Shown: positions 1,675-19,086 of the stretch, in pieces | Numbering within the stretch: position 1 is the first letter of the stretch | How the letters are laid out: every line of letters starts with the position of its first letter | DNA from: Candidatus Bathyarchaeota archaeon | GTDB lineage: Archaea > Thermoproteota > Bathyarchaeia > 40CM-2-53-6 | Direction: 5' to 3' | NCBI GenBank assembly: GCA_005888735.1 | Contig: VBBN01000027.1 | Location: 1-64,000, forward strand | DNA length: 64,000 nucleotides | The notes under the pieces: generated by a model | Databases searched by the model: none | Seen by the model: only the letters and a program-made list of their open reading frames with translations | Told to the model about the DNA's origin: nothing | Program-made: the position numbers and the translations under genes

Positions 1675-2571
1675 ATGCAGTCATATTCGTTGGCGTTTTC
1701 ACGAGACTCAGAGCATCGACTGTGGTTGACCTTCGGAATAGCCTCCGTGGTCACAGTCATAGAACTCCTCGGCGGAATATCGAGCCACAGCCTCGCGCTT
1801 CTCAGCGACTCAGGCCATGTCTTCACTGATGTCCTTACAATCGGGGTCAGCATTCTGACAATGAGACTCGCGAGGAAGCCACACTCCTCAACCAGAACCT
1901 TCGGTTATCACCGGGCCGAGATCCTTTCCGCCCTAGTCAATGGGTCGACGCTAACATTCATCGCATTTCTCATAATCTACGAAGCATATGGAAGACTCCT
2001 GCAACCGTCCCAAGTGGCAGGTTCCCTGGTCGTACTCATTGCTCTCGTAGGACTTGCAGGCAACCTCGCCGTCGCCCGCCTATTCCTCAAGAGTTGGAGA
2101 AGCTCCTTGAACGTGAAAGCGGTCTTCATTCACGCCATAGGTGACATCTTATCATCATCCGGAGTAATGATCGGCGGATTGGTCGTTACTTTCACAGGCT
2201 ACAATAGAATTGACCCAGCAATAGCCATCCTGATAGGCATTCTCATACTTCGAAACGCCTATGGCCTGGTCCGCGAGTCCACCGAGATTCTGCTAGAGTC
2301 CACCCCGAAACATCTACAGCTCGAAACCGTTGCCAAAGCTATTCTTGCCGTTGAAGGAGTCAACGGAATCCACGATCTACACGTTTGGACAATAACATCG
2401 GGTCTCTATGCTGTCAGTGGGCACATAACTGTGAAGGCTGAAACCATCGATGAGGGTTCCCGAATCATCAGCGAAGTTTCGAGCCGCTTGAAGAACAGTT
2501 TTGGAATAGACCACGTCACACTGCAACTAGAACGTCAAACCCTAGAGAAGATCCAAAGCAACGAAAATTGA
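1675..2571 (+). CDS. Cation diffusion facilitator (Zn/Co/Cd efflux), CzcD-like
   Basis: A 298-residue CDF-family proton-coupled exporter of divalent metals in the cytoplasmic membrane. Six hydrophobic segments fill residues 15-205. The metal site in TM2 is seen as LLSDSGHVFTD (D45, H48, D52) and the one in TM5 as HAIGD at about residues 153-157. The C-terminal cytoplasmic domain (about residues 205-290) holds the typical GVNGIHDLHVWT segment. The H-x3-D pattern in TM2 is that of zinc- and cadmium-type CDFs rather than iron/manganese types, but the exact metal is inference. The gene stands alone, converging on the DUF4430 gene with only 6 bp between their ends. Confidence 0.93.
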   Translation: MQSYSLAFSRDSEHRLWLTFGIASVVTVIELLGGISSHSLALLSDSGHVFTDVLTIGVSILTMRLARKPHSSTRTFGYHRAEILSALVNGSTLTFIAFLIIYEAYGRLLQPSQVAGSLVVLIALVGLAGNLAVARLFLKSWRSSLNVKAVFIHAIGDILSSSGVMIGGLVVTFTGYNRIDPAIAILIGILILRNAYGLVRESTEILLESTPKHLQLETVAKAILAVEGVNGIHDLHVWTITSGLYAVSGHITVKAETIDEGSRIISEVSSRLKNSFGIDHVTLQLERQTLEKIQSNEN

Positions 2572-2577
2572 CCTTGG

Positions 2578-3120
2578 TCACCTGGGACAAGAGGAAAGCT
2601 TCGTTGCGCTTGGGACTGGTGGCTGCCAGGTCGATGGGTCTGAGGTCGGAGGTGCTTGGAAGTACCAAGCAAGGACCATTCGGTTTTTCAACCTGATGAG
2701 GTCTGCACCGACCGGTGACGCGGCCCATCCGCGGCCCGCGTCGCAGAAGGTCCAAAGTGTCCAGTAGGACCTACCCGACCCTCTAACTCCATCTATTCCT
2801 TGGATAAAATGCTCGTTGAGCACCGAGGTGTAAGTTGCTTCCACTTTTGAAATGTTGGCGGTAAGGTCGTAGAAGTTCCAGCTCGGGGGCACGTGCGTTT
2901 TGTTTGCCCACCGACTTGTACCGTTTCCGTAGTTGATTAGTGTGTCTATTGTTAGGTAGCCTCCGTTAGAGCTTGTCCGGAAAAACCCCTCCAGTTGGAT
3001 GTATGCTCCGAGCTGTCCGGCCAGGACTAGTGCAATGACCACAATAAGGCCTATGTAGAAGAATCGGGTCCTGGCTGACGACTTGGCGCTTTTCAAGACG
3101 TAACTCCCGAAGCTAGCCAT
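2578..3120 (-). CDS. Membrane-anchored DUF4430 protein (transcobalamin beta-domain-like)
   Basis: A 180-residue protein with one N-terminal membrane helix (about residues 20-42) followed by an exported domain. Residues about 85-165 follow the DUF4430 pattern: a beta-strand leading to FIQGIDGV, a tryptophan-rich strand, then SPVGADLIRLKN and a hydrophobic closing strand. In human transcobalamin and intrinsic factor this fold is the beta domain that closes over cobalamin. The gene overlaps the end of the upstream ECF S-component gene by 8 bp, so the two are translationally coupled, and it is third in the cluster after the toroid protein. A role as the lid of a corrinoid receptor is inference; other ligands are possible. 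Confidence 0.65.
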   Translation of the reverse strand: MASFGSYVLKSAKSSARTRFFYIGLIVVIALVLAGQLGAYIQLEGFFRTSSNGGYLTIDTLINYGNGTSRWANKTHVPPSWNFYDLTANISKVEATYTSVLNEHFIQGIDGVRGSGRSYWTLWTFCDAGRGWAASPVGADLIRLKNRMVLAWYFQAPPTSDPSTWQPPVPSATKLSSCPR

Positions 3121-3802
3121 GTCCTAGCCGTCGTGACGCAATTATCGTGGCGGGAGCAATTGTTGCAAAAAAGAACAGGTTACTGACCTCATGAACAAGT
3201 GCGAAAGGTGCACCAGTGACAAGCCCGATCACCAGAGCGCTATAGAGCGAAGGTGTCTTGAATAGCCAAGAGGCAAAATTTGTCAGAACGTCATATGCAA
3301 GGGTTGACAGCAACCCTGCAGTACCGAAGAGTAGGCTGAGCCTCCCGTAGGAGATGAGTCTAGTCACGAACCCGCGGAATGATGTTAACCGTATCGCTAT
3401 TCTGGCGCGAAGCGTGCGGAGAGGTGCCGGAACCATCGCGGTTCTTGTCGGGTATTTCTTCTCAACGGGAAGCTCTCTCTCAAGAGAGGTTCGCCTCAAG
3501 GCGAATCCAGTTATTGCGTAGAAGCATTCTCCAGCCACAAGGAAGGAGAGAAGAATTAGGTCATCGGCTCCGTACGGATTGATGAAACCGTAGACTCCCC
3601 ATGAGACGACAGCAACCCCGACCCCTATCCGCAAGCCGAAGAGGAATGCGGCTAGGAATACCAGAGTATCCATCAATTTCACGTTGACAATTCCAATCAT
3701 TGCATAGTTCGAAGCTAGTGAAATTGCTGCAAATACTGCGACTAGGGCTGTCTGTGTGACTGAGCCAGAGAAGACCGGTCGATGCGCAGTCAAACGGGTC
3801 AT
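3113..3802 (-). CDS. ECF-type transporter S component (substrate-binding membrane subunit)
   Basis: A 229-residue membrane protein with about six hydrophobic helices, split by a basic cytoplasmic loop (about residues 105-150). The first half carries the S-component look: a short N-terminal helix, a KLMDTLVFLAAFLFGLR segment and an acidic NPYGADDLILL loop before the next helix. S components bind a vitamin or metal and pass it to a shared EcfA/EcfT energising module, which is not in this window. The gene starts 6 bp after the toroid gene and overlaps the DUF4430 gene, so all three are one operon. Substrate is unproven; context suggests a corrinoid. A non-ECF prenyl-type membrane protein is a less likely alternative. 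Confidence 0.7.
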   Translation of the reverse strand: MTRLTAHRPVFSGSVTQTALVAVFAAISLASNYAMIGIVNVKLMDTLVFLAAFLFGLRIGVGVAVVSWGVYGFINPYGADDLILLSFLVAGECFYAITGFALRRTSLERELPVEKKYPTRTAMVPAPLRTLRARIAIRLTSFRGFVTRLISYGRLSLLFGTAGLLSTLAYDVLTNFASWLFKTPSLYSALVIGLVTGAPFALVHEVSNLFFFATIAPATIIASRRLGHG

Positions 3803-3808
3803 CCATGA

Positions 3809-5215
3809 CTACCCTCGCGAGGCTCTTCGTCTACGCACAAGGAAGAAGGTCACGGTCAGAAGAATCAAAACGATAGCGAGCGGTACGACGGCCAAAAAAA
3901 TAGCTGAAGGAGATGGGGCCGGACTAGCTTGTAAGGGGGCCGGTTGAACATACAAGGCCTGCCAAGTGGTGTCTGACAGAGCTTGTGCAGTCCCAGTTTC
4001 TTTTGCTGTTAGAGTTATCGAGAAATTCCCGGGCCTTGTGTAGACATGGACTGGGTTTACTCCTAACGCTGAAGAACCGTCTCCGAATGTCCAAGAATAT
4101 GATAGATCGTCTCCGTCGGGATCATATGAATCACGCGCGGTGAACGAAACGCCGGTGTTTTCTACCACGCTCTGAGGGCTGAAGATGAACTTGGCAACTG
4201 GAGCGTGGTCTATCTGTTCTAGGTGAGTGCTGAGAGACCCGACTTGAAGAGCTATAGCTGCCCAGCCTGTGTCAAGCGCATTTGGCCCTGACGATCTTGA
4301 GATGTCGTTGAAACTTCCATCAGGGTTTTGCTGGGCTCGAAGACAGGCCAGTGCTCCTGAAGCGTCTTCTAGTCTGTAATATGACACAAACGCGAGTGAG
4401 GAGAGCGCGGCTGCATATGGATGGCCAGGCCCGCCGAGGTTTTCTGAAACAGCCTTACTCAAGAAGTCGAGAGCCTTCATAATCCGAGGATTGTTAATCG
4501 AGAAGGATGCGTCTCTCAGAACAAGAGTGACGAGTGCCGTAATGCTGACGCTGTCTGGTCCTAGGGAGTATATAGGGTCCGAACGCATTCGGTTTGTAAG
4601 ATTGAAACTTCCATCATTATTTTGAAGAGACAGGAGGTAGCTTATTCCCGCCGTCAGGTTTGTTGTTTGTATACCACCTGCATTGATTAATCCCCACAGG
4701 GCTTCGGCCGTATCGACCGAACTCGTGACTGTGTGCATGAGAGACGTGTCGAAGTACCCCTCGAACCCTCCAGTTGGTAATTGGAACTGGAGAAGTCTGT
4801 CATAGACGCCTGTGGAGTCGTGCAGAAGATTGAGTTGTTGGGTCGCGGCGACGGTGTAGAGAAGCACGCCTGGATAGTCTGACTCGCCATACGGAGGCCA
4901 AAACCAGCTTGACGCGCTGTCAAGCTGTCCTGTTATGTTCGTGTATGATAGTCTTGATGAAGCTGAACTTGAATTGTTCAACCAGAGCGCGTAGGCTGCG
5001 GCTGCAGTTTGTTGTTCGTGAAAGTCCCCATAGGAGCCGTCCCTGAGTTGGTGGGAAACGAGCCATTGAAGCGCGGAGGAAACCGCTGATGTTTGAACTT
5101 GACTCTGACGGGTTGGGGAAGTCTTGGGTTGAAGCTGATCAGTCGTCGTGACAAACGGGAAGATGGCTGTTAGAATTAGGAAAGTGGCGGCTAGGAGGCT
5201 GTTCGAAGCGGGCAA
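3809..5215 (-). CDS. Surface-anchored alpha/alpha-toroid (prenyltransferase/transcobalamin-like) protein with PKD domain
   Basis: A 468-residue exported protein. It has a signal peptide (residues 1-25), an alpha/alpha-toroid of repeated helix pairs (about 40-335) with the glycine-rich turns LRDGSYGDF, LPTGGFEGY, NNDGSFNLT and NPDGSFND, a PKD beta-sandwich (about 340-425, with SYSWTFGDGSS) and a C-terminal membrane helix plus RRRR tail. Squalene-cyclase-type toroids also form the alpha domain of transcobalamin and intrinsic factor. It is first in an operon with the ECF S-component and a DUF4430 protein. Start is TTG; a TTTAAG box lies in the 71-bp gap to hyuB. The cyclase DxDD motif is not seen, which argues for binding rather than catalysis. 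Confidence 0.75.
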   Translation of the reverse strand: MPASNSLLAATFLILTAIFPFVTTTDQLQPKTSPTRQSQVQTSAVSSALQWLVSHQLRDGSYGDFHEQQTAAAAYALWLNNSSSASSRLSYTNITGQLDSASSWFWPPYGESDYPGVLLYTVAATQQLNLLHDSTGVYDRLLQFQLPTGGFEGYFDTSLMHTVTSSVDTAEALWGLINAGGIQTTNLTAGISYLLSLQNNDGSFNLTNRMRSDPIYSLGPDSVSITALVTLVLRDASFSINNPRIMKALDFLSKAVSENLGGPGHPYAAALSSLAFVSYYRLEDASGALACLRAQQNPDGSFNDISRSSGPNALDTGWAAIALQVGSLSTHLEQIDHAPVAKFIFSPQSVVENTGVSFTARDSYDPDGDDLSYSWTFGDGSSALGVNPVHVYTRPGNFSITLTAKETGTAQALSDTTWQALYVQPAPLQASPAPSPSAIFLAVVPLAIVLILLTVTFFLVRRRRASRG

Positions 5216-5286
5216 AGTTACCCGCCTGTGCCCGGGTCTCGGTTGGCCATTTAAGGGTTCATTGCCTCATAATCATACGGTGTTAA

Positions 5287-6876
5287 GTGCGTCTGGCTTC
5301 CCTTGACCTAATCGTCTTCGAGATTGTCAAAAACTCGCTAATCTCCACAGCCGAGGAGATGGGCGTTGTCCTGCGACGATCGAGCTTCTCGCCCAACATC
5401 AAGGAGCGGCGAGATTTTTCCTGCGCTTTGTTCGACGGCGCCGGTAATCTTGTGGCTCAAGCAGAGCACATACCTGTTCATCTTGGAGCCATGCCCCATG
5501 CAGTTCGGACTGTTCTCTCAGAGTTCGGCGAAGATATCGCGGAAGGTGACAGCATCATCCTAAACGATCCCTTCCGGGGAGGGACGCATTTACCTGACAT
5601 TACGATTGTCTCGCCTGTATTTCAAAGCGGCAAGCTTGTCGCTTTCGCTGCGAACCGGGCTCACCACTCTGACATCGGTGGTGGGACTCCTGGTAGCATG
5701 TCACCCTTGTCGACAGACGTCTACCAGGAGGGTCTCCGAATCCCACCAGTTAAGCTGACCCAGCGAGGAAAGCTCAACAGGCCGGTTCTTCAAATGGTCC
5801 TTTCAAATGTCAGGACTCCTAAAGAAAGGCTCGGGGACATTAGGGCCCAACAAGCCGCAAACGAGTTTGGCACTAGACGGTTCACCGAGCTCGCGCGGAA
5901 ATTCGGAATCAAAAACCTCTTGTCTGGAATGCGCGATCTGCGAAACTATTCTCGACGGTTGATGTTGGCCGAACTCGCAAAGCTTCCAAAAGGGACCTCA
6001 CGTGCTGTCGACTATCTAGACGATGACGGTGTTGACGAACGACCAATTGCTCTAAGGCTCAATCTCACGATTGGTGATGGAAGTATTGAATTCGACTTTC
6101 GCGGCTCAGCCTCGCAGACGAAAGGCCCTGTCAATGCGGTCTACAGTGTCACTCTCTCCGCAGTTTACTATGTCGTTCGATGTATCACAGAGCCTAGCAT
6201 ACCTGCAAACCAGGGATGCTTCGAGCCCGTGCGGGTGATTGCGCCGGAGGGAACAGTTCTGAACGCGAGGCCCCCCGCTCCCGTGGCTGGAGGTAATGTT
6301 GAGATGTCGCAGCGTATTGTAGATGTCTCTTTGCGGGCGTTTAGCAGGGTTGTCCCGTCGCGGGTCTGCGCCGCGTGCCAGGGAACGATGAATAACATGA
6401 CCATAGGCGGGGTCGATAATCGTACCGGCCAGTACTTCACCTACTATGAGACGATAGCGGGAGGGTTTGGCGCTCGTCACGACAAGGACGGAGTCGATGG
6501 GGTTCACAGTCACATGACGAACACGTTGAACACGCCCGTGGAGGCTCTGGAGACGGCGTATCCATTGCGAGTGAGAAGGTACGAGCTTAGGCCTGGCTCA
6601 GGTGGCCGCGGAAAGTTTCGAGGAGGATTGGGAATAACGAGGGAGGTTGAGATTCTATCTGAGGAAGCGAATATCTCCATTCTCGGGGATCGGCAACGCA
6701 TAAGACCATGGGGGCTAGCGGGCGGCAGTCCTGGATCAGCAGGCGAATACTTCATTCTTCACCAGAAGGGTCGCTTCCAGAGGCTTCCGAGCAAAACCTC
6801 TTTCAAAGCTCGGACCGGCGACGTTCTGAGGGTCTCAACCCCAGGCGGTGGTGGTTTTGGCAGAGTTTCACCCTGA
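5287..6876 (+). CDS. hyuB: Hydantoinase B / oxoprolinase-type subunit
   Basis: A 529-residue HyuB-family protein, the partner of HyuA in ATP-dependent hydrolysis of hydantoins or 5-oxoproline-like rings. Family landmarks are a FEIVKNSL start, RRSSFSPNIKERRDFSCA, ILNDPFRGGTHLPDI, the metal-like AAN-RAHHSDIGG segment, NVEMSQRIVD, and the glycine-rich ends RPGSGGRGKFRGG and STPGGGGFG. Length is normal. Start is GTG. It is divergent from the toroid operon and points towards hyuA, so the two subunits are not in one transcript, which is unusual. Substrate is not predictable: acetophenone and acetone carboxylases share this fold. Confidence 0.92.
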   Translation: MRLASLDLIVFEIVKNSLISTAEEMGVVLRRSSFSPNIKERRDFSCALFDGAGNLVAQAEHIPVHLGAMPHAVRTVLSEFGEDIAEGDSIILNDPFRGGTHLPDITIVSPVFQSGKLVAFAANRAHHSDIGGGTPGSMSPLSTDVYQEGLRIPPVKLTQRGKLNRPVLQMVLSNVRTPKERLGDIRAQQAANEFGTRRFTELARKFGIKNLLSGMRDLRNYSRRLMLAELAKLPKGTSRAVDYLDDDGVDERPIALRLNLTIGDGSIEFDFRGSASQTKGPVNAVYSVTLSAVYYVVRCITEPSIPANQGCFEPVRVIAPEGTVLNARPPAPVAGGNVEMSQRIVDVSLRAFSRVVPSRVCAACQGTMNNMTIGGVDNRTGQYFTYYETIAGGFGARHDKDGVDGVHSHMTNTLNTPVEALETAYPLRVRRYELRPGSGGRGKFRGGLGITREVEILSEEANISILGDRQRIRPWGLAGGSPGSAGEYFILHQKGRFQRLPSKTSFKARTGDVLRVSTPGGGGFGRVSP

Positions 6877-7212: not shown

Positions 7213-7707
7213 TCAGTTCTGGCTTGCTTTGTGTGATTGCTGGCCTTCAAGCACGTGGACTACGTTGGTGACTACTTTCAGGGTAGGAATGAGGGCCAGG
7301 AGCAGGAAGATCAAGGGGTACGCCCACGGTGAGCTGGCGAAATAGGGGCTTGCAATACCGCTGCTGACCGAGTAGAGGATGACTATTGCCAGTATCTGGA
7401 AGAAGTAGGCTAGCACAGGGGTCCATGCTCGGTAGGCCTTGAAGTTGTCATGGACCGTCATCGAAATCTGAGTCCCGAACTTGAGAACGATGAAAGTAAC
7501 GACCAACCCAATTATGAACACGGCTAGAGTTGCGATCGAGAATTGAGTTCCTGAAATGCTCTGACCTATGCCAGGGAAACCAAGGACTACGGCTTCGAGG
7601 ACAACTAACACGATTACTCCCGCGAGTAGACGTATGAATGCCGGCATTACAGGGCTGAAGGAACCCCACGGGTTGTCGCGGGACGAGCTGGAAGTGGAAT
7701 CTGTCAT
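7213..7707 (-). CDS. Hypothetical four-helix membrane protein
   Basis: A membrane protein of about 164 residues with a serine-rich N-terminus and four hydrophobic helices, followed by a polar tail ending in SHKASQN. I recognise no family. I start it at the ATG encoding MTDSTSS, because a GAATATC box lies about 43 bp upstream; a GTG start at 7758 would add 17 residues. It follows hyuA by about 58-108 bp on the same strand and may share its transcript, so a role in substrate entry for the hydantoinase is conceivable but unsupported. The downstream gap holds the dispersed repeat. Confidence 0.7.
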   Translation of the reverse strand: MTDSTSSSSRDNPWGSFSPVMPAFIRLLAGVIVLVVLEAVVLGFPGIGQSISGTQFSIATLAVFIIGLVVTFIVLKFGTQISMTVHDNFKAYRAWTPVLAYFFQILAIVILYSVSSGIASPYFASSPWAYPLIFLLLALIPTLKVVTNVVHVLEGQQSHKASQN

Positions 7708-7815
7708 TACATTCAACCTTTCGGTAGCTCCTAGTCCGTGAGGAGACGAGATATTCACCTAGCGAAACCGACGCGAACAAGCAACAGTTACAGTTCGGAA
7801 CGGTCGACAACGCTA

Positions 7816-9948
7816 TTAGGAGAGAGAAATTCTGAAGGAGCCAAGTTCGTCGACCACGTATCGAGCCTGGGGTGGAATGACAAGCGTCGAGTCGTAGTCT
7901 TCGACTATGCAGGGTCCTGCGCCCTTGGAACCAGGACCCATTGCGGAGCGAGTGTAAATCGGGCAGTTGTGCACGAACCCTTCATCGAAGAAAACTCTCC
8001 GGTGACTTGTGCCGGCCGTCCTTAGGATTTTCCTTTCCGCCTTGGCTGGACGATTTCTTGCTCTTCCCCTAGCGTAAACCCTGAGGTTCACAAGCTCGAC
8101 CGTATCAGTAGAGGCAGAGTGTCCGTATTGGCCGTGATGGATAATGTGAAATGATCTGATGGCTCGGTTCAGCAGACTTCGGGTGGCCTTCTCCCTTGAG
8201 ACGGGAACCGACAGCTCATAGGATTGGCCGGCGTATCTCATGTCAAACATTCGTTCGAAGACCATATCGCTTTTGTTGACCTGTTCTTTCTCCAGAAGCG
8301 CCCTTCCTCTCTCTTCCATCCCGCGAAAGGTCCTGTCAAGGACAGGAAGGTTCGCGTCTTGAGCGTGGGAGAGCCTTGTTCTTACAAAGTCATGAAGGGG
8401 CTCTGCGAGCAACAAACCCAGGCTGGAGAATAATCCGGCACGAGGAGGCACGAGCACACTTCGAATTTCAAGCTGTCTAGCGAGCTCGCAGGCATGCATC
8501 GGTCCTGCGCCACCAAACGCGACGAGGAGCATCGACCGTGGGTCGCGACCCCGCTCGACACTCGCAGCCCGCAGAGCCTGAGCCATGTTAGCAGTTGCAA
8601 TCCTAAGAACGCCCGCGGCCGCCACGGAAACAGTGGAGTTCATCCGCTTCGCTACATGTTCTCGGACTGATTTCTCAGCCAGTTGAGCATCTATGACAAG
8701 CTCGCCTCCTAGAAGGCGCTCTGGGTTCAGACGTCCAACTACAAGGTTTGCATCGGTCAGGGTCGGCCTGGTACCTCCCAAATTGTAACAGGCGGGTCCA
8801 GGAGACGCTCCGGCACTCTCAGGACCGACGTGCATGACCCCCGCATCGTCGACACTGGCGATGCTTCCTCCACCAATTCCGACTTCGACAAGGTCTACGT
8901 AGGGAAACCGCACCGGGTATCCTGAGCCGACAAGGCGGCGAACATCGTGCAGTCCGCCTCCCACTTCATACTCTTCAGTGGCATCAAAACGATTCCCGGA
9001 CCAGACTCCAGCCTTTGCCGTCGTTCCGCCAATGTCCAGGGAGATTATTTCACGCGCCTTGGCTTCAGTACCGTAGACCCTTGAGGCAACGGCGCCTGCG
9101 ACGGGTCCTGACTCGATGATTCGCGAAGGCTCGCGGGACGCTTGAGTTGACAGGAGTGTTCCGCTGTTGGACTGCATCACGAAGAGAGGGGCCCGAATGC
9201 GTAGGCGCGCCAGCCCTGCCTCGAGAGCTTCGAGATAACGCGAGACTATAGGTTGTAGACACGCATTCACGACGGTAGTGCTTATCCTTTCATACTCTCG
9301 AAACTCGGGAATTAGTTCAGATGATACGGACACATGTATTCCCGGGCAAGCGCGACGAAGTATCTTCGCAGCTATTCGTTCATGTTTGGGGTTCGCGTAA
9401 GAGTGGAGAAAACAGATGGCGACGCTTTCCGTTCCGAGCCTGCGAATCACACCCGCAACTTTCTTGACTTGGGTCGCACGGATGGGTTCGAGCACTCTGC
9501 CTTCATAGGAAATCCGCTCGCGCACCTCGAATCTGTTCCGCCTTGGGACAAGAGGTGGCAAGCGTTCGAATTGCAAGTTGTACAACTCTGGCCGGTTCTG
9601 CCGCCCAATTTCCAGGACGTCCCTGAATCCCTCAGTTGTTACCAGAGCCACCTTTGGCAGTGACCCTGTCAAAAGCGCGTTTGAAGCGAGAGTAGTGGCG
9701 TGCACTACGACTCTAACACGCTTAGGGTCGACTTTGCTACCTTTGAGGAACCTTTGAACCGAGTTTAGCGCACCGTTAGCTGGGAGGACTGGGGTAGTCA
9801 ACACTTTGAAGCGAAAGACTTCGCCGGCCTGCGATTGGGCAACAAGGTCTGTGAAGGTTCCTCCGATGTCGATGGCCAGCCTGATGTCATCAGAATTCGA
9901 ATACGGGTCCTGCAGTTTCACCAGCCTCGACCTGCCCTTTGACAGCAT
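7816..9948 (-). CDS. hyuA: Hydantoinase A / oxoprolinase-type ATPase subunit
   Basis: A 710-residue HyuA-family subunit, an actin-fold (ASKHA) ATPase that phosphorylates the ring amide before hydrolysis with HyuB. Visible motifs are the first phosphate loop [12 protein letters not shown] near residue 27, [13 protein letters not shown], the second phosphate loop [13 protein letters not shown] near residue 300, [19 protein letters not shown]-like GPACYNLGG and the [15 protein letters not shown] adenosine segment. Length is typical. The gene is convergent with hyuB (5287-6876) instead of sharing an operon with it. The upstream region has an ATATTAAG box about 50 bp before the ATG. Confidence 0.93.
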
Positions 9949-16663: not shown

Positions 16664-18973
16664 CTAGCTGTCCTTCGTGATGACATAGCGACTGGTGTGC
16701 GATTCATTTTGGCCTGTGGTTGGGTTAGAAACCTGTGCCTTGGAACTCGGGCCTTCAACTGTGGTTGAGGGTGATGAGACGGGTCTGGCTGGAGTGTTGG
16801 AAGCAACAAGCTCGTCCAGAAGAAGAAAGAATGCTGCGAGAAAGGAGACCGAGAGCAGAATAAGGGCTCCGAAAGCGTTGATTGTCTCCAAAGCAGTTTG
16901 AGTTAGTTGATTCAAATGAGACTGAACCCAAAGATTGGTTGTGTAGTCCAAGTAACCTGCTCCAACGAGAGCTAAGAGTACAAGCGTCTCAAGTGAAATC
17001 GCGAGTTTCGTCTTCAAAGGAATGCCTGGAATCAGCCTGTCCTCGGGACGGACTGGAACGCGCCTAAGTCGTCCGGGTGCCCACCAGTTCAGTCGTTTCA
17101 TTTGAGTCATGATTGCTGGGACGAGGTAGATTCTGATCAGGCTGGCGTCAAGGAGGACAACGATGAATATTCCCAGTCCCAGCTGCTGCAGCATTGGGAT
17201 TCGTGAGAGCGTCATTGTGCCGAAAGCGCCGGCGGTTACAAGGCCGCTTGCCGTTATGATGCCGCCAGTATGTTCTACCGCCCGCTCAATCGCATCTTCT
17301 TCCCTGGCTCCGCTGACTACGTATTCCCGGATTCGAGTGACTAGGAAAATGTCGTAATCAAGGCCCAGGCCGACCATTATAACGAGCAGCATGATGGGCA
17401 ATATCCAGATTAGTTCTGACCCCATGAATGTCTCGGAGAATATGAGTACGCCAGCCATGGCCCATGAGACGCTGAGGAGGATCGTGAAGATTAGTCTCAG
17501 TGGAGTGAAGACTGAACCTAGGGCGAGAAGGAGCGCTATGAATACTCCCATAAGGACGAGAGAGGTCAGGTTCACGTAGTCCTGCCCGCTTGCGCTGACT
17601 AGGTCGGCGACGGAGGCCGTTGCTCCGCCGACCATCATGGTCGATGAGCGGAGGAGAGAGTTCTGAGCTTGCATACTTCTCACGTTCTCTCTGATTCGCC
17701 CGAGAGTTTGTATTGCGACGTCCGAGTATGGCTCGGTTGCGAGGACTGCCCATACCATTCCTGATTTTCCGTCTGCTCCGACAAATGGCTTCATTGTCTG
17801 AATCATTGCCTGTTGCTCGGCTCGGCTCAGCTGGTCGAACGATGAGTAGGGTATGGCCTCGCCCGCCGGGTGGGTGATTCCATAAATCTTGATTACTCCG
17901 GAGATTTTTAGTGTTGAGTTTTCGGCGTAGGAGAGAGCGTGGAGGGCTGTTACGTTGATCCAGTTGTCCGTGACTAGGAGAGCAGGGGTTTCGACGATTG
18001 TGTAGGTTGGCGTAATTGTCCCGGGGCCGAATCCTCTGCTCAGCACGTCGTAGCCGGCTTTGCTGTCGAGCTGGCTCGGAATTTGGGAGATGAAATCGTG
18101 GCTCGTGTGAGACGTTAGGATTGTACTGGTGGCGGGGAGAGAGATTGCAAGTGCCACGAGGATAATGAGTTTCGAGTGGCGGATTGTGAACTTGGCGGCT
18201 CTCTGATAATAGCTCTCGCTCACAGTTCGCTTTCTCCTGTTGAGACCTACACCGCGGGGCCAGAAAAGCCTGTCACCGAAAAGCGATAGTGCCGCGGGAA
18301 CGAGTGTGAGTGAGACTAGCAGAGCTATAGAGATTCCGAGCATCACCGCGATGCCGATCGAGCGGAGCATACCAAAGCTGGCGATGGCGAGGCTTCCAAA
18401 GGCAATTACGACCGTAGCGCCGCTCGTGGCAATGCTCTCACCTGCCCAAGTGACAGCGTGTTCAACAGCCTCTTCCTTTTCTCTTCCATTCCTACGTTCT
18501 TCGGCGTACCTGCTCACGAGGAAGATGCAATAGTCGGACCCGGCTCCGAACATGGCGACGGGAAGAAGCGTCAAGACCAGAAAATGAATACCGGTGAAAA
18601 GCGAACCTATCAAATAGACGAGCCCGAACGATATCCCGACTGAGAGCCCGATGGCGGAGACGGGGACGAGCGGTGCGGTTAGGCTGGAGAAGAAGAGTCC
18701 GATGATTATGATGATGAGAAGAATGGTTATTGGGTCAATGCGTTCCACGTCTGCTACAGTTTCTGACTCGATATCGTAGTTGAAGGCTGGTGCACCGGTC
18801 ACATATACCCCAGGGCTTAGGCCGGTCGACTGTTTTGTGGCTCCAATATCACCTCTCACCTGTTGTATGCTGTTTCGCGGGTCGGTGCCACTCGATTTGA
18901 AATCCAGTATCACTAGCATCGTGTTGTTGTCGCTAGAAACGAACTGGGAGTAGACTGAGCGACTTGGTTGCAC
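16664..18973 (-). CDS. MMPL/RND-family exporter, C-terminal part (frame-broken gene)
   Basis: These 769 codons hold most of an MMPL-type RND transporter: the end of the first extracellular domain, helices with GSDYCIFLVSRYAEE, a second extracellular domain (about residues 290-450) and a second helix bundle with GLDYDIFLVTRIREY. The reading frame continues upstream of the GTG start through a sensible sequence (about 38 codons) to the spot where the N-terminal part stops, so both parts are one gene. The two parts are joined if one base is added in the CCCAAACC run near 19096-19098. MMPL proteins export lipids or drugs using the proton gradient. The break may be a sequencing error, a true mutation or, least likely, programmed. 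Confidence 0.85.
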   Translation of the reverse strand: MQPSRSVYSQFVSSDNNTMLVILDFKSSGTDPRNSIQQVRGDIGATKQSTGLSPGVYVTGAPAFNYDIESETVADVERIDPITILLIIIIIGLFFSSLTAPLVPVSAIGLSVGISFGLVYLIGSLFTGIHFLVLTLLPVAMFGAGSDYCIFLVSRYAEERRNGREKEEAVEHAVTWAGESIATSGATVVIAFGSLAIASFGMLRSIGIAVMLGISIALLVSLTLVPAALSLFGDRLFWPRGVGLNRRKRTVSESYYQRAAKFTIRHSKLIILVALAISLPATSTILTSHTSHDFISQIPSQLDSKAGYDVLSRGFGPGTITPTYTIVETPALLVTDNWINVTALHALSYAENSTLKISGVIKIYGITHPAGEAIPYSSFDQLSRAEQQAMIQTMKPFVGADGKSGMVWAVLATEPYSDVAIQTLGRIRENVRSMQAQNSLLRSSTMMVGGATASVADLVSASGQDYVNLTSLVLMGVFIALLLALGSVFTPLRLIFTILLSVSWAMAGVLIFSETFMGSELIWILPIMLLVIMVGLGLDYDIFLVTRIREYVVSGAREEDAIERAVEHTGGIITASGLVTAGAFGTMTLSRIPMLQQLGLGIFIVVLLDASLIRIYLVPAIMTQMKRLNWWAPGRLRRVPVRPEDRLIPGIPLKTKLAISLETLVLLALVGAGYLDYTTNLWVQSHLNQLTQTALETINAFGALILLSVSFLAAFFLLLDELVASNTPARPVSSPSTTVEGPSSKAQVSNPTTGQNESHTSRYVITKDS

Positions 18974-19086
18974 GGGATAAGCGTCCGTGGACGGGTCACC
19001 GATGTTGTACGCAGCGAGGGCCCGGGCGGCGAAGCCCCTAAAATCTGTAAGAGACGCGCCGGACCCTAGGTCGTAGATTTGGCCGA

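Follow-up and report, generated by a model that had tools for sequence, protein, structure and literature searches.

The window considered here comprises 64,000 nucleotides of Candidatus Bathyarchaeota archaeon (GenBank assembly GCA_005888735.1, contig VBBN01000027.1, positions 1 to 64,000 of the forward strand). Three minus-strand open reading frames (ORFs) in the ORF list of the window, transcribed in the order T-S-D, encode a secreted alpha/alpha-toroid protein (T), a multi-pass membrane protein of the energy-coupling factor (ECF) S-component type (S) and a membrane-anchored DUF4430 protein (D). S and D most likely take up a corrinoid, S as a predicted CbrT-like translocating component and D as a predicted capture or lid domain resembling one half of the animal vitamin B12 carriers. 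T probably supplies the second half of the clamp. An earlier annotation made from the DNA letters (the sequence-only reading) had described three overlapping or touching genes. The ORFs are real; S and D share 8 nt, and 6 nt separate T from S.

Folds and kinship of D and S

D is a protein of 180 aa (2578..3120; this and all other features of the operon are on the minus strand). An N-terminal transmembrane helix (2980..3078, about residues 15-47), which appears as a long helix in the structural model and as a hydrophobic stretch in the sequence, precedes a transcobalamin-type beta-domain (2647..2964, residues 53-158, the range aligned by Foldseek and VIA). The AlphaFold model of D has a predicted local distance difference test (pLDDT) score of 88.2. 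Foldseek returned 17 matches to this model at E<=0.001, namely 15 transcobalamin or haptocorrin chains and two chains from one DUF4430 structure, with intrinsic factor slightly lower (E 1.6e-3 and 2.7e-3). VIA-align gave Z scores of 12.5-13.8 for transcobalamin, haptocorrin, intrinsic-factor and DUF4430 structures, compared with 6.5 for the best unrelated fold; the alignment to 2bb6_A (Z 13.5) has a deviation of 1.7 A across 96 residues. The confident model and these structural matches place D with the beta-domains of the animal carriers and bear out the DUF4430 fold assigned to it by the sequence-only reading.

At the sequence level, D matches Pfam DUF4430 (PF14478) under the family cut-off (E 8.7e-4; 20.1 bits, cut-off 23.8), and 18 of 31 D homologues match it at E<=0.01 (best 1.4e-7). 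A profile built from bacterial CbrT loci only detects D at 3.2e-5. Alignment by hhalign with the beta-domains of intrinsic factor, haptocorrin and transcobalamin, for which the carrier sequences were the letters in PDB alignments, reached a probability of 81.7% (E 1.1e-5). A direct PDB profile search with D gave chance matches only, and the beta-domain assignment therefore rests on structure and hhalign. Taken as modelled, D is predicted to have the transcobalamin/intrinsic-factor beta-domain fold. An isolated human beta-domain in complex with cyanocobalamin is the subject of PDB entry 5np4, according to its title. Because this domain can hold the vitamin by itself, S and D could plausibly work as a unit that has no toroid.

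S (3113..3802) has 229 aa and shows weak Pfam matches to ECF S-components (5.8e-5 and 2.6e-3, both under cut-offs); ECF_trnsprt is matched by 26 of 31 S homologues (best 2.5e-10). The six-helix S-component fold is found in its AlphaFold model (pLDDT 88.7), which VIA aligns with 22 entries of the ECF or S-component type at Z 11.2-15.7, the next unrelated fold reaching 8.2. Among S-components, profile searches single out CbrT, the proven cobalamin and cobinamide S-component of ECF-CbrT (PMC5997447). When the S-family profile was compared with all PDB chains, the only match up to E 10 was CbrT (6fnp_A, E 8.3e-6). After divergent relatives were added to the profile, CbrT was matched at 3.4e-23 and the next family, of the RibU type, at 0.15. 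In the other direction, a CbrT-type profile drawn from other genomes (19 bacterial and one marine archaeal) detects the window S (5.9e-7) and not the other S-component of the same genome, which is clearly of the RibU type (PF07155, E 6.7e-30). The window S aligns with bacterial CbrT by hhalign at a probability of 98.6% over 174 columns, with about 18% identity. By its sequence, S is kin to CbrT above other S-components, as a divergent branch. The idea that S is a plain CbrT orthologue was dropped, as its motifs differ. The vitamin-type importer postulated by the sequence-only reading is consistent with these results, the nearest solved relative of S being a cobalamin S-component.

The pairing of S and D is conserved. 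Among 151 related genomes, S occurs in 65 and D in 77, each in one or nearly one copy per genome, and the two genes are adjacent in 38 of 39 compared loci across the class, mostly touching or overlapping. With copies this few, adjacency in 38 of 39 loci argues that the pairing is not due to chance.

The toroid protein and its counterparts in CbrT operons

T is the first gene of the operon (3809..5215; 468 aa, TTG start). A signal-like N-terminus, judged from the sequence, is followed by the toroid region (4241..5095, about residues 41-325) and a PKD domain (3971..4207, residues 337-415), both delimited by Pfam and the family alignment. A C-terminal transmembrane anchor (3821..3889, about residues 443-465) consists of a hydrophobic stretch and then RRRR. 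The PKD domain is variable in the alignment, present in some T homologues and missing from others. Pfam matches of T are to PKD_4 (E 1.7e-20), TED_complement (1.3e-11), Prenyltrans (7e-9) and SQHop_C (1.2e-8); PF01122 was not among them. Identification of T as a transcobalamin by PDB profile search was tried and rejected, since squalene cyclases, alpha-2-macroglobulin and prenyltransferases were matched and no transcobalamin. In the same genome, a soluble-looking toroid of the squalene-cyclase type (L073 2040-3125, plus strand) adjoins the gene for the small subunit of methylmalonyl-CoA mutase.

The sequence of T is linked to the toroids of other CbrT operons. A profile of bacterial CbrT-operon toroids detects T at E 1.5e-11 and a control toroid of the same genome at 0.0037, and hhalign aligns T with archaeal toroid-DUF4430 fusions at 96.8%. 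The bacterial operon toroids in turn align with the animal alpha-domain at 94.4%, and the bacterial DUF4430 domains with the beta-domain at 97.1%. The T family itself gave an hhalign probability of 0.8% against the animal alpha-domain, no signal, with two control toroids at 1.3% and 0.9%. T is thus tied to the alpha-domain by way of the toroids in other CbrT operons. The sequence-only reading saw in the toroid and DUF4430 proteins the two halves of an animal carrier; this stands for D, with its beta-domain fold, but the sequence of T is itself unmatched to the alpha-domain.

A scan of species genomes for CbrT-type S-components gave 79 loci in Bathyarchaeota, Chloroflexota, Bacillota, Actinomycetota, marine Euryarchaeota and others, and DUF4430 and/or toroid genes flank 62 of them. 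The loci were picked for CbrT and not for DUF4430 or toroid genes; the flank profiles were iterated on sequences of this analysis. The typical order is (toroid)-DUF4430-EcfT-EcfAA-CbrT, and in lactobacilli the DUF4430 gene lies directly upstream of CbrT. Cobalamin riboswitches precede the operon in eight of 16 scanned bacterial loci (L132, L140, L141, L143, L152, L160, L165 and L167). The system is not confined to archaea; most of the bacterial CbrT-type loci found have the same extracellular parts. In three loci of marine Euryarchaeota of the Thalassarchaeaceae type (L188, L189, L192), a DUF4430 protein directly precedes the CbrT-type S-component. Clostridium CbrT loci (L140, L142, L144, L147, L151) encode very large proteins, the longest of 2147 aa, with multiple toroid and DUF4430 domains, which are apparently multivalent B12 binders. 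Near the B12 operon of a member of the Dehalococcoidia, a thiamine pyrophosphate riboswitch (L126 14997-15095) was observed, as was another S-component belonging to the CbrT superfamily (18270-18983).

Within the class of the window, no family but the window's own has T beside S-D (15 loci), and this confinement marks T as an addition to a conserved core of S and D. The "split transcobalamin" operon named by the sequence-only reading therefore describes the variant of this family, but the unit conserved across the class is S and D without T. In operons that also hold S and D, other families of the class encode single proteins in which DUF4430 follows a toroid (L104-L108). The operon of L109 combines a toroid-DUF4430 fusion, a DUF4430 protein, EcfT, a double EcfA and a CbrT-type S. 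The S of L106 matches CbrT at 6.9e-11 in a single-sequence search and has the motifs PNVQPxT, SNxFLGxGxWTxxQ and FDxxHAxGN in common with it. At L104, a four-gene operon that includes a toroid-DUF4430 fusion, S and D is led by an anchored protein with three DUF4430-type and two PKD domains (3575-5452, plus strand).

Genome context, proposed mechanism and rival explanations

The sequence-only reading had suggested a search of the genome for EcfA/EcfT and B12-dependent genes, and both groups are present. An ECF module on another contig (C11; L072 4656-7115) encodes EcfA (287 aa), EcfA' (280 aa) and EcfT (277 aa); a single separate module is what a shared group II system would be expected to have. 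A B12-dependent methylmalonyl-CoA mutase, with two large subunits and a small B12-binding subunit, and a PduO-type cobalamin adenosyltransferase are also encoded. No corrin-ring methylases were found in the genome; its single TP_methylase protein resembles diphthine synthase, which makes de novo synthesis of the corrin ring improbable. No FecCD/BtuC-type permease was matched in the genome by a search whose control was positive in 13 of 14 genomes, in agreement with the earlier proposal of a system not based on BtuF. Across the 151 genomes, a strong FecCD match is missing in 57 of 65 S-positive and 41 of 86 S-negative relatives (Fisher p 1.9e-7). This complementarity is only supportive, because families confound it and p is 0.036 outside the two largest blocks. 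A BtuF-type gene was considered as a partner of S and rejected: such a gene (PF01497) lies beside S in a sister genus (g2) and not in the window. The protein encoded there (L042 5057-5980, minus strand) starts MRICSLLPSATEI and has no evident signal peptide, and its gene lies beside S in divergent orientation; homologues were seen in 11 loci of this genus.

In the proposed mechanism, D, tethered outside the membrane, would bind a corrinoid (cobalamin and/or cobinamide) through its beta-domain. T, likewise tethered outside, would probably clamp the corrinoid together with D, in a two-chain version of the alpha-beta clamp of intrinsic factor, and the pair would pass it to S. S would then topple in the membrane, driven by the shared EcfA-EcfA'-EcfT module. 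After import, the PduO-type enzyme would adenosylate the corrinoid for use by methylmalonyl-CoA mutase. Computation shows the folds, the kinships, the order of the genes and the surrounding genome; the ligand of S and D, the clamp and the hand-over are the steps that we infer.

Several observations weigh against this mechanism. The EcfA-EcfA'-EcfT module is encoded outside the operon, and at a genome completeness of 93% the absences are likely, not certain. No cobalamin riboswitch was found in the window or in seven scanned loci of Bathyarchaeota genomes. For the S model, Foldseek and VIA rank FolT, RibU and ThiT. The rows listed lack 6fnp, which is not thereby excluded; such a ranking of modelled structures does not tell the ligand. 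As a divergent CbrT branch with about 18% identity, S could also have shifted its substrate. Finally, most of the class has no T beside S-D, and the T family gives no signal with the animal alpha-domain.

Some of these points are shared by three rival explanations. The one with the most in its favour concerns T, which might be an unrelated surface protein (an adhesin, a thioester-type or a carbohydrate-binding protein) that lies by chance upstream of a corrinoid importer made of D and S. The restriction of T to one family, its lack of a match to the alpha-domain, the macroglobulin TED domain as its best Pfam toroid match and its PKD domain, a frequent part of surface proteins, would all fit. 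Other Bathyarchaeota, Chloroflexota and Bacillota nevertheless repeatedly have toroids beside CbrT and DUF4430, in many cases on one chain with DUF4430; the bacterial toroid profile separates T from the control toroid of the same genome by the E values given above; and T is co-directional with S and touches it in the window. An unrelated T is rather unlikely.

It is improbable that S and D import another vitamin or cofactor, such as riboflavin or a corrinoid precursor base, with DUF4430 as a generic domain for small ligands or metals. The best Pfam match of S is indeed the riboflavin S-component family (5.8e-5, below the cut-off), the nearest bacterial DUF4430 structure (3u7z) is labelled a putative metal-binding protein, and CbrT does not stand out when S is ranked by structure. 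Against this, the genome's clear RibU-type protein is its other S-component, profile searches with S pick CbrT alone, and cobalamin riboswitches precede homologous operons. That S acts as a solitary transporter or sensor independent of the ECF module is less probable still. BtuM shows that B12-dependent growth can be sustained by a solitary protein resembling an S-component (PMC8123684), and the position of EcfAA'T outside the operon would suit such a role; the genome has one complete ECF module, however, as a shared group II system should, and relatives carry S in the same operon as EcfT and EcfAA. Corrinoid uptake by S and D through the shared module thus remains the preferred explanation, with T as the probable partner of D.

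Among the neighbouring genes, a CDF (cation-efflux) gene lies at 1675-2571 (plus strand), and its homologues are found at most four genes from S in 17 compared loci. Genes of the hydantoinase B type (5287-6876, plus strand) and hydantoinase A type (7816-9948, minus strand) flank a small membrane protein (7213-7758), which matches no Pfam family at E<=0.01 and has homologues beside the operon in ten compared loci.

Comparison with known systems

These results suggest a widespread capture module with the same two folds as the human B12 carriers, tied to CbrT by gene order and, in Bacillota, also by cobalamin riboswitches. In the usual description, CbrT binds its ligand unaided. A capture module would give DUF4430 a predicted function and predicts B12 auxotrophy and uptake in uncultured Bathyarchaeota. 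The CbrT transporter and an annotation linking DUF4430 to CbrT in lactobacilli are known; no description of toroid/DUF4430 proteins with ECF transporters, of the toroid part, of fused carriers or of archaeal systems was found in the literature searched.

ECF-CbrT of Lactobacillus delbrueckii (PDB 6FNP) shares with the window the S-component fold, a full-length profile match and a common ECF module that, as in lactobacilli, is encoded at a separate place. The N-V motif that follows the first helix is kept in the window S, as is H-x3-N close to its end. The two differ in their low identity in the profile alignment (about 18%) and in their motifs, which are NVKxMD, NPxG and HExSN in the window S and PNVQPxT, FLGxGxWTxxQ and HAxGN in CbrT. 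Unlike CbrT, the window S is co-transcribed with anchored capture proteins. A DUF4430 lipoprotein of lactobacilli (LGG_02295 / LRHMDP2_2713) is annotated as an "additional lipoprotein component of putative cobalamin ECF transporter" (PMC9963975). In Lacticaseibacillus, its gene adjoins that of a B12-dependent reductase; the annotation is automatic, with no experiment (PMC9963975). As in the window, a DUF4430 protein is associated there with a CbrT-type S-component, but it is a soluble lipoprotein-type protein and no toroid accompanies it. BtuCDF resembles the proposed system in that extracytoplasmic corrinoid capture feeds an ATP-driven importer. The capture fold and the importer are unrelated, however, and the genome is without a BtuC-type permease.

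Animal transcobalamin, intrinsic factor and haptocorrin share the beta-domain fold predicted for D, and in related operons a single chain holds a toroid ahead of DUF4430, which is the domain order of the animal carriers. In the window, by contrast, T and D are separate membrane-anchored chains, T has a PKD domain, and the hand-over would be to an ECF transporter and not to an endocytic receptor. The capture module offers a prokaryotic relative for studying the origin of intrinsic factor and transcobalamin. We tentatively consider that the animal B12 carriers may descend from a prokaryotic corrinoid-capture module (fused, split or beta-only) serving CbrT-type importers, of which the window would represent the split, two-chain clamp.

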